Shown: piece after piece, positions 1,100 to 6,730 of the stretch
Layout: every line of letters starts with the position of its first letter
Numbering within the stretch: the stretch's first letter is position 1
DNA from: Candidatus Altimarinota bacterium
GTDB lineage: Bacteria > Patescibacteriota > Gracilibacteria > BD1-5 > UBA6164
Reading direction: 5' to 3'
DNA length: 64,000 bases
NCBI GenBank assembly: GCA_013350285.1
Contig: JAAXWG010000003.1
Coordinates: 62,001-126,000, forward strand
Notes under the pieces: generated by a model
What the model was told of the DNA's origin: nothing
The model's database searches: none
Seen by the model: the letters and a program-made list of their open reading frames with translations, nothing else
Translations under genes and position numbers: made by a program

Positions 1100-2080
1100 C
1101 TACACCACTTTTTCCAACTCTTTCAATAATTCTTCTTTCACATCATCTATATTTCCTGATTTCTTAAATCCTGCTGCAAGTTTGTGCCCACCTCATCAAA
1201 ATAGAGCACAAATTTTTGCAACATCTATAGTGTCATCATTGCTTCTGAGGCTTCCTTTTATGTTTCACTTTTCTGTTTCATAAATGAGAAAAGCGATTTT
1301 TGCTCATTCTATTGTTGCTATACATTCGTTTAAAAGTCATGAAATTTCTTCTTCGTCTGTATCTCAAAAATCTTCTTTTTTTGCTATTGCTCCGACAATT
1401 TTTCAATCCTTGAAATCTTCTATATGGGATAGTACTTTTGTAAAAAGCTTAATTTTTTTGAGAGATTTTTTTCTAAAAAGTTCAAAAATTATTTGGTGAC
1501 TCTCTGCTCCAAGAGAAAAAAGCTCAGAAGCAATTTGAATTGTTTTTGATGAAGTGTTTTTATTGTAAAAAATATTTGTATCCGTATATATTCCTGTAAG
1601 GATAAAATTTGCTATTTTGTTATCAATGAGTTTGTCATATCAAAGATTTTTGTATATTTCATACACGAGTTCGCAAGTAGAGGAAGTTTCAATATCAATG
1701 ATATTAATATTTCAAAATCAAGGATTTGTAAGGTGATGATCTATAACTATAAGAGGTTTTTCTTCAAAAAATTCTTTATTTTTTTCATATATTTCTCCGA
1801 GTTGTCAGAAATCAGAAGCATCAAGACTGATAATAATATCAGGATTAAAATCTTTTATCTCAAAGTTTGTTTCTATTATTTTTTCTTTTGAAAGAAATTG
1901 TAGACTTTTAGGAACTTCATAATCATTGACTGCTTTTACATTTTTTCCAAGTTTTTGCAATATCAAAAAAAATGATCATAAGCTTCCAAAAGCATCACCA
2001 TCCATTCTAATATGATTAATAAGGAGTATTTTTTTACTTTTATTGATATAATCTCATAATTTTTTTATTTCAGTTTTCAT
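1100..2080 (-). CDS. DHH/DHHA1-family phosphoesterase (nanoRNase/pAp phosphatase-like)
   Basis: The product has 326 residues with the full DHH-DHHA1 layout. Motif I (HIRMDGDAFGS) is at residues 23-33, motif II (DASDFG) near 90, and the name-giving DHH triad sits in IDHHLTNP. The C-terminal DHHA1 signature is GGGGHKLAAGF. Family members use two Mn ions to hydrolyse 2-5 nt RNAs or 3'-phosphoadenosine phosphate in the cytoplasm, so a role in RNA turnover is likely. The length is typical of NrnA proteins. In-frame TGA codons encode Gly, including in the GGGGH motif area. The gene lies downstream of the structured-RNA terminator at 2226-2266 on the same strand and probably has its own promoter. 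Confidence 0.93.
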
Positions 2081-2225: not shown

Positions 2226-2266
2226 AAAAAAAACTCAAGTATTTTGGGTAAAAGTGACTTGAGTTT
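2226..2266 (-). terminator. Rho-independent terminator of the structured RNA
   Basis: Ten bases at 2231-2240 pair perfectly with 2257-2266. On the minus strand the stem is followed by eight U residues (A-run at 2226-2233 on the plus strand). No U-run follows the stem on the plus strand, which fixes the direction as leftward. Confidence 0.8.
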
Positions 2267-2721
2267 ATTTGTGTTGTCTAGTTCCACTTCCTAGACGAAA
2301 AAAAATTTTTTGTAGTTGTCTAGGGGGAAAAAGATCAATTTTAGAAAATTAACCTTTATTTTCTTTGAAGATTAAAAAGATTCAAAAGAACTTTTTTCTC
2401 TTCATTAGTTTAACCTCTCTTGGGTAATTTTTTGAAAGCGATTCACCATGCTTTTTTATTTTTATTTTTTTATAAGACTTCAATGGTCTTATTTTTTTGT
2501 AATTGGTGATTTTTTTGTAATTATATCCGTTTACAAACAAATTTTTTTTAAAATTTACTTATAAACGGATATAATTTTTTTCACCGTTTTTGTTTTTATT
2601 TTTGGATTTAAGATAAACTTAAATCTAGGTTTTTTTATAAGGGTGTTTCACTAGGTTTTTGTGAATCCCATTCTGGAGAAGAAAAACTATTTTAATGAGC
2701 GAAAGGATTTCTCCTTTGCAC
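2226..2721 (-). ncRNA. structured non-coding RNA of about 500 nt, class unknown
   Basis: No protein frame crosses this stretch, but it is full of stable hairpins. On the minus strand, in order: AAAGGA-GAAA-TCCTTT with a GNRA tetraloop (2702-2717); a GGG/TTCAC stem (2641-2670); GATTTAAG/CTTAAATC (2605-2625); a long hairpin with a 14-bp perfect base (2520-2575) enclosed by GGTGA/TCACC; AAGAC/GTCTT near 2473-2489; and CCTAGAC/GTCTAGG (2290-2324). It ends in the terminator at 2226-2266. A TATAAT box lies about 7 nt upstream. I looked for signatures of RNase P RNA, tmRNA, SRP RNA and 6S RNA and found none that convince. The 5' end is inferred from the promoter. Confidence 0.6.
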
Positions 2722-2881: not shown

Positions 2882-3051
2882 CTCTCAAAGTTTAATAAAA
2901 ATTTTAATAAAAAACCTTGATATTGTGCAAAATTTGTATACAGTAATTGTTATAAAAAATTTCCTTGTTTAAAATTTGTTAAAAAACTATAATAATGAAT
3001 AAAAAAGAAGCATTGGAAAAATGATTTTTCTTCCTAAATAAAGAGGAAACT

Positions 3052-5226
<2,175 letters not shown>

Positions 5227-5320: not shown

Positions 5321-6730
5321 ATGCAAAAAACAATTTATTGAGCTTTTACTATTGTAGAATTGATTGTTGTCATAACTATACTTGTAATTCTTTCAACAAT
5401 AGGATTTGTAAGTTATCAATGATTTAGTATTTCTGCAAGAGATAGTAATAGAGTTACTCAGGCTTCAAATATATCTGAAGCCCTTGAATCTTATAAGATA
5501 AATAAAACTCTTCCTACTCCAGAAAATAATGTTAGGATAGAAAGTAATGGAGTTCCTATATGATATCAATGATATTTTTGAGAAGATTGTCTTGCTTCAA
5601 TATCGTATGGAAAATGATGAAAAGATCCAAAAGATAACAATTATTTTACTTATTATGTAAATGGTGATAATTATGAAATTCTTGTATATTTAGAAAAATG
5701 AGAATTGACTTTTTTACCACAAACTTATGCTTCTTCTATAAATTATAGTAAAAGAATAATGAGAGTGTATTGAGATAAGTTATGAATATTAACTGACATA
5801 AATAATACTCCTATCCAAGAAATAACGAGTATCACAGCATCATGAAAACTTGATATTGCCACGACTACAGCTACTTATAAAGCAATATTAACTGATTCTG
5901 AAAATGTAACAGGATCATGAACAGTTCTTATATCAACACTTCCAAAAGGAAATTGTAAAAGAATAAAAGAGTTAAAAGGAGCTTCTCAGGATTGAGTTTA
6001 TTCTATAAGTCCAACTTGAACCTGAACTTTTGATGTATATTGTGATATGGTAACTGATTGAGGTGGATGGACTTTGATTTGATACAAAACTTCATGACAA
6101 AGTACTTGGAACAGAATAAATACATTAATAGATGGAAAAAAATCTTATTCAAATACAAAAATAAATATAGTTTGAGGTTTGATAAGATGAAACTATCTTA
6201 GGGTAAGAACATCAGTATGAAAAGATAAATTATTAAGTAATTCTTTTGTTAATGATTGGTGGTATTATTGGGATAATACCGATATTCTTCCAAATAGAGT
6301 AATAACTACATCTTCATCAAATCGGACCGCATTTGATAAACCTAGTATGGTAAAAGATATTAAATATTGAGTGGTATTGAATAGTCCTGATTATTACATA
6401 GATTTGACTGATGAGCAAAATGTTTCTAATGTAAAAGCCTTATTTTCAAATTTATGAACGACTTATGATTGAGATTTGCAATGAGATTTGAGTTTTGCTT
6501 TTCTTTGAGAAAATTGAAAGGCTCGTATATTAACAGATAATAAAAGATGAATATGACAAGATCATTGATGAGCTATATGGGTATGAAGAGATGATACAAC
6601 AGAGGGGTTATATTATTGCGAATCAGCATCTTGTCTTAATAATCTAGCTGTTCTAAATGATTTTTGATGAACACCTTCTAATGGGGCTATTTTTAGTTCT
6701 ACTTATACTTTATGGCTTTTTATAAAATAA
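5321..6730 (+). CDS. prepilin-like protein with C-terminal fibrinogen-like domain
   Basis: The product has 469 residues. The N-terminus has a short basic leader, then G-A-F-T-I-V-E-L, the class III prepilin cleavage and methylation motif, and a hydrophobic helix of about 20 residues. Around residues 220-245 comes DGVYSISPTGTGTFDVYCDM followed by TDGGGWTLI, the hallmark start of a fibrinogen C-terminal-like domain, which often binds sugars or proteins. It is a close paralogue of the gene at 50635-51897 over the first 190 residues. The likely role is a surface pilin or pseudopilin adhesin assembled by a type IV pilus machine encoded elsewhere. The gene is convergent with trmB and overlaps it by 11 nt. 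Confidence 0.85.

Follow-up and report, generated by a model that had tools for sequence, protein, structure and literature searches.

A large structured noncoding RNA that probably represents a new class in the Gracilibacteria

Results

The locus and its gene neighbourhood

We studied the minus strand of positions 2226-2721 in a window of 64,000 nt, the whole stretch of DNA that was analysed, taken from a 1.28 Mb genome assembly (98% complete). The genome belongs to the Gracilibacteria that read TGA as glycine, and the frames of ligA and its neighbours are open only with code 25; named genomes with the same RNA are Candidatus Gracilibacteria and Candidatus Altimarinus. The region is flanked by ligA (2995-5226, plus strand), divergent and on the upstream side of the RNA, and by a gene for a DHH-DHHA1 phosphoesterase (1100-2080, minus strand), downstream of the RNA and on its strand. 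Other observations in the window were two apparent in-frame palindromic repeat insertions inside the open frame of ligA (3405-3470 and 3886-3930; for instance CCCCCTACCGCCCCCCTTATTAAGGGGG...AAAGGGGG and a TTCAGAATGAC-type element), a prepilin-like N-terminus fused to a region resembling a fibrinogen-like domain (CDMVTDGGGWTLIG) at 5321-6730, and a 254-aa protein, in code 25 and without a Pfam match, at 257-1021.

Comparison of 20 extended loci showed ligA divergent upstream of the RNA in 19, and the DHH gene downstream on the same strand in 15, being absent or displaced in the others. In divergent genera of the window's family the RNA sits away from ligA, and in other families, as read from the sequence, an ssb gene is convergent downstream of it; an ssb-like convergent neighbour was read in this way at six loci, with a gene end encoding DDLPF. 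An earlier note, made on the letters of the window, had proposed comparing homologous regions upstream of ligA, a link that holds in most of the window's family and not in its divergent members or in other families. Since the neighbouring genes differ between lineages, the RNA is neither a leader of one of the two flanking genes, ligA and the phosphoesterase gene, nor part of the control region of either.

Promoter, terminator and strand

The whole RNA (~496 nt, 2226-2721, minus strand) is bounded by a -10 box and a U run. The -10 promoter element, TATAAT, reads 2733-2728, about 7 nt before the RNA start, and is kept in relatives; in the alignment of other families the promoter appears as TTGAAA...TGnTATAAT. 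The 3' end is a hairpin followed by U8, with the run ending at 2226. Both calls rest on sequence reading and conservation: an automatic scan of the window listed neither promoter nor terminator, owing to a weak -35 hexamer and to an internal loop in the terminator stem.

The predicted fold of the minus strand had an energy of -116.7 kcal/mol; dinucleotide shuffles averaged -67.4 +/- 5.3, which puts the strand at z -9.4 (0/100 as low). The plus strand folded less well (z -6.5) and was rejected as the coding strand, since its fold is weaker and both U run and promoter lie on the opposite one. The minus direction is supported by the U run, the -10 box conserved in relatives and the covariation of the minus strand (see below); the earlier note had cited the U run and the GAAA loop. 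Its structural observations were confirmed: the boundaries 2226-2721, the TATAAT box and the terminal U run held exactly, the promoter and strong terminator held by reading and conservation, its GNRA-capped stem is the GAAA-capped stem at 2717-2702, and its stem with a 14-bp perfect base lies at 2575-2562 / 2533-2520.

Most copies carry TGTCTA after the U tract, complementary to a TAGACA just before the terminator hairpin (window 2275-2280 and 2215-2226); the window's own TGTCTA equivalent is degraded to TTGCTA. The RNA may thus extend beyond these Us, or a closed loop may enclose them.

Structural elements

The elements described here, all on the minus strand, were assessed in an alignment (A1) of 35 copies averaging about 50% identity; among non-redundant copies the mean pairwise identity was 51%. 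The 5' hairpin P1 (AAAGGA-GAAA-UCCUUU, 2702-2717) is represented in relatives by GUAAGUUA...UAACUUAC, with a pairing fraction of 0.83-0.91. The long-range helix P2 is formed by a 5' strand (2676-2689), located before the A-rich linkers, and a 3' strand (GAGAGGUUAAACUA, 2406-2419), located after P7, and the two covary with several pairs at E<=0.05. Hairpin P3 (GGGAUUCAC-AAAAACCUA-GUGAAACACCC, 2641-2669) was 95% paired and contained the significant A1 pairs 76-86 and 73-89; its loop AACCU (2653-2657) is half of a loop-loop interaction, being the complement of 2351-2355. A-rich linker 1 (CAAAAAUAAAAACAAAAA, 2587-2604) is unpaired and nearly invariant, with a mean column identity of 95% versus 70% for the 5' strand of P5, i.e., the most conserved stretch is an unpaired one.

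The long hairpin P5 (2520-2575) has the 14-bp base mentioned above, with changes on both sides in 13/14 pairs. It is followed by P6 (2473-2491), a hairpin of variable sequence supported by sequence reading and fold, by A-rich linker 2 (2455-2472), kept across families, and by P7 (AAAGC-AUGGUGAAUC-GCUUU, 2435-2454), in which the A1 pair 383-403 was significant and which covaries again in other families. The P7 loop forms a pseudoknot (2423-2447), GGUGA (2443-2447) pairing with UUACC (2423-2427), that was 97.7% paired with both-side changes in 3/5 pairs; within the window's family the downstream partner of GGUGA is UNACC. Towards the 3' end, P9 (2344-2363) carries the loop AGGUU (2351-2355), whose pairing with the P3 loop is supported by covariation. 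P10 (CCUAGAC...GUCUAGG, 2290-2324) was recognised by eye and not counted, as its 3' strand is poorly aligned in A1 and A2. The terminator hairpin P11 (2226-2264) has a conserved ACC loop and the U8 tract, and its A1 pairs 601-636, 607-633 and 615-626 were significant.

Covariation within the family

An APC-corrected G-test on A1 with a tree-preserving null gave 14 pairs at E<=0.05, all of them at least 91% canonical, distributed in P2, P3, P5, P7 and P11 plus one pair between the loops of P3 and P9. Over the 62 named pairs in 35 copies, 95.4% of cells were paired versus 77.5% in shuffled alignments, 51 pairs had changes on both sides, and the covariation score was 0.558, against 0.223 when shuffled and at most 0.121 when slid. 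Covariation in relatives upstream of ligA, a check that the earlier note had proposed, is therefore strong and far above controls; together with the full-length copies described below, it makes the case stronger than that note had stated.

The contact between P3 and P9 occurs in two variants, AACCU with AGGUU or AAUCC with GGAUU. Its two variable pairs, A1 columns 82-501 (UA 21 / CG 14) and 84-499 (CG 18 / UA 15 / UG 2), were canonical in 35/35 copies. The P9 loop could instead form an H-type pairing with a downstream GAUC (columns 499-503 with 520-524), which was 83-97% paired and competes with the P3-P9 contact. The latter has the stronger support, being 99% paired and having two covarying pairs, and was retained.

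Distribution in the window's family

A DNA search of 60 relatives matched 37, nearly all in the window's family. Iterated nhmmer recovered 32 full-length copies of about 400-490 nt, with tandem pairs at four loci, and almost every genus of the family has a full-length copy. R1, a covariance model that covers the 3' half of the RNA, matched 44/48 genomes of the family and 32/33 of the good ones; near-universality was counted for this family only. Two copies per genome, in tandem or on separate contigs, were observed in several cases (loci L020, L023, L024 and L029; genomes G008, G007, G010, G019 and G023).

Other families of the class and beyond

Searching other families of the order with R1 gave no match, and it missed family f2, which a later model (R2, see below) matched weakly. 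In another family of the class, R1 had a weak match in genome G100, and the linker, P7, pseudoknot and P2 could all be recognised when this locus was read. With the G100 copy as DNA query, 31/60 relatives of G100 matched, with families f20, f26, f33, f6, f32, f23 and f31 represented at E<=1e-3. In the resulting alignment P2 is CUCCCUACUUUUCGAUGG pairing with GGUAGGGAG, the A-linkers are present, and P7 is GAACGG-GGUG-CCGUUC with a downstream CACC. In the 71-nt core of these families P7 and pseudoknot covary (8/10 pairs; 0/500 shuffles), with compensatory pseudoknots at two loci (GCGU/ACGC in L166 and UCUGU/ACAGA in L172).

The R2 model, built from this core without the window's family, added families f22, f24 and f27 and gave weak matches in f2, where three loci (L189, L190 and L193) showed the same features when read. 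Conversely, it matched 12/14 tested loci of the window's family at the same core, the window's own locus with 33.5 bits. Several genomes elsewhere in the class had no match in searches with the G100 DNA and R2, for which limited sensitivity or loss are both possible. At most loci of other families the standard code gives flanking frames of about the same length as code 25 does; the RNA is therefore probably not tied to TGA recoding.

The loop-loop contact was also inspected in 30 other-family copies. Measured as the longest exact complement joining the P3 region to the 150 nt that follow P2, complementarity averaged 6.03, versus 5.13 (maximum 5.77) when partners were exchanged between sequences 500 times, so that the contact covaries between families; examples are CCAACU/AGUUGG, GCGGCUA/UAGCCGC, ACGACGAU/AUCGUCGU, CGACUA/UAGUCG and CCGGCUU/AAGCCGG. 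A few sequences had their longest complementary run away from the P9 position. A tree-aware test on a smaller other-family alignment, which has little power, gave one significant pair and an E of 0.30 for the loop-loop pair.

Outside the class, model R3 gave four marginal matches in 39 genomes drawn from the phylum, about the chance expectation. Only one of them, L200 (E 0.016), showed the architecture when read: TATAAT, CCCCUAC...GUAGGGG, GGGAGCCGAUACUCCC, A-linkers, AGAACGGUAGGGG, and a loop of P9 type (UAUCGG) that complements the P3 loop CCGAUA, with a fold z of -9.5. We consider it likely that L200 is a genuine copy in another class of the phylum, which a single genome does not prove.

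Comparison with known RNA families

Using a covariance-model match above the gathering score as criterion (Rfam 15, 4227 families), cmscan of the window found only a tRNA, away from the RNA locus; at E<=10 the RNA region had only sub-threshold matches to unrelated families. Likewise, the matches at 24 loci of relatives were limited to tRNAs outside the RNA and to unrelated families below threshold, the OLE, ROOL and GOLLD models did not match the locus, and a search of the open literature found no description of such an RNA.

A diverged RNase P RNA or tmRNA can be excluded because both were found elsewhere in the genome: the RNase P RNA (RF00010, class A) with 137.4 bits, and a complete tmRNA at C4:213106-213569 with 66 bits, ending GGUUCAAAUCC...CCA. 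At the studied locus tmRNA was further ruled out by the absence of ARAGORN or Rfam matches and of a recognisable tRNA-like domain. 6S RNA is a single long hairpin with a central open bubble; the locus had no match to RF00013 and its consensus fold is multi-domain. For SRP RNA, the criterion of a domain IV hairpin recognised by the SRP model was not met at the locus. The small SRP model of Rfam (RF00169) found no SRP RNA even at E<=1 in this genome and 19 relatives (together 20 genomes of three families), while controls matched; in this order SRP RNA is lost or strongly diverged. The claim of no match to RNase P RNA, tmRNA, SRP RNA or 6S RNA made in the earlier note thus held, and Rfam 15 gave no credible match for the window's RNA or its relatives.

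Discussion

The results show an RNA gene locus with promoter and terminator signals and a conserved tertiary fold, near-universal in one family, wide in its class and unrelated to known families. The best overall explanation is that the locus encodes a large structured noncoding RNA of a new class, which we regard as likely (probability about 0.75) in the absence of expression data. That the class is a new, trans-acting structured RNA is very likely, with the trans action being inferred. The earlier note had offered two options, a housekeeping RNA that has diverged strongly or a new class, refutable by a lack of conservation and covariation in relatives or by a clear match to a known family; neither occurred, and the new-class branch is the one supported.

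In the proposed mechanism the RNA would be transcribed from its own promoter and end at its own terminator, and would adopt a compact tertiary fold through the long-range helix P2, the pseudoknotted P7 hairpin and the P3-P9 loop-loop contact, the latter joining the domain closed by P2, through P3, to the 3' domain, through P9. It is inferred to act in trans as a housekeeping RNA. Its most likely role would be that of a ribonucleoprotein scaffold in which the A-rich linkers may dock protein or RNA tertiary contacts, an inference drawn from single-stranded A-rich linkers kept almost letter by letter while the helices change freely. Without binding or protein-partner data we place this reading slightly below even odds. 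The linkers can also be read as A-R-N triplets, with Hfq as a possible partner, again without binding data. Sequence cannot tell protein binding, multimer formation or action on other RNAs apart, and the biochemical activity is unknown.

Three rival explanations were weighed. If the RNA were a strongly diverged known housekeeping RNA, SRP RNA would be the sole candidate left; the SRP RNA of the organism is indeed unaccounted for in its own genome, and the near-universal distribution in the family would fit. Nevertheless, the SRP model matched neither the region (E<=10) nor distant copies (E<=2), and a P2-closed multi-hairpin domain with pseudoknot and loop-loop contact is unlike SRP RNA, so that we consider this very unlikely. 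Also very unlikely is a cis-acting leader or attenuator of the DHH phosphoesterase gene, suggested by its position downstream on the same strand in 15/20 contexts: the gene is missing or displaced in the other contexts, the RNA ends at its own terminator well before the gene, the downstream ssb of other families is convergent, and tandem copies of the RNA exist.

An RNA-only assembly or cage RNA like ROOL and GOLLD, or an OLE-like RNA, would account for the similar size and complexity, the pseudoknot, the kissing-type loops and the linkers, and the covarying loop contact of ROOL proved to be intermolecular (PMC12286853). Against it, no Rfam match links the RNA to ROOL, GOLLD or OLE, the linkers are of fixed sequence, the locus is kept in most of the family and the core pattern is absent from viral contigs; we regard this alternative as unlikely. 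By the last two points, a phage or mobile-element RNA was also rejected.

The new-class reading remains preferred. A 500-nt RNA kept by nearly all of one family, with copies across the class, must pay its way. Bacteria of the candidate phyla radiation have genomes of about 1 Mb and associate with other cells as partners or parasites, and the RNA occurs both in lineages reading TGA as glycine and in lineages that apparently do not. A bolder reading, which is no more than possible, is that the RNA is ancient and near-essential in the Patescibacteria (candidate phyla radiation), a housekeeping RNA comparable in rank to RNase P RNA or tmRNA in these minimal-genome bacteria and with an activity unknown in other lineages. 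The RNA had escaped Rfam; an alignment and covariance models are now available, together with a defined structure (P2, P7 pseudoknot, P3-P9 contact and A-rich linkers) that is open to direct testing. The find shows that this radiation still has undescribed large RNAs that may play core roles.

Among known systems, tmRNA is alike in its length of about 400-500 nt and its pseudoknots, and RNase P RNA in its similar length and long-range helix; diverged forms of the latter have been reported in these phyla (PMC8172020). OLE RNA, a homodimer for which protein partners are known (PMC12286853), is likewise large, structured and chromosomal, with a complex fold of its own, but it has no sequence or Rfam match to the new RNA, a different architecture and different lineages. 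ROOL and GOLLD share with it the size class, pseudoknots, a covarying loop-loop contact and linkers (PMC12286853). However, they are phage-borne RNAs with variable linkers (PMC12286853), whereas the new RNA, besides lacking an Rfam match, sits at a chromosomal locus that is mostly conserved and has A-rich linkers that do not vary.
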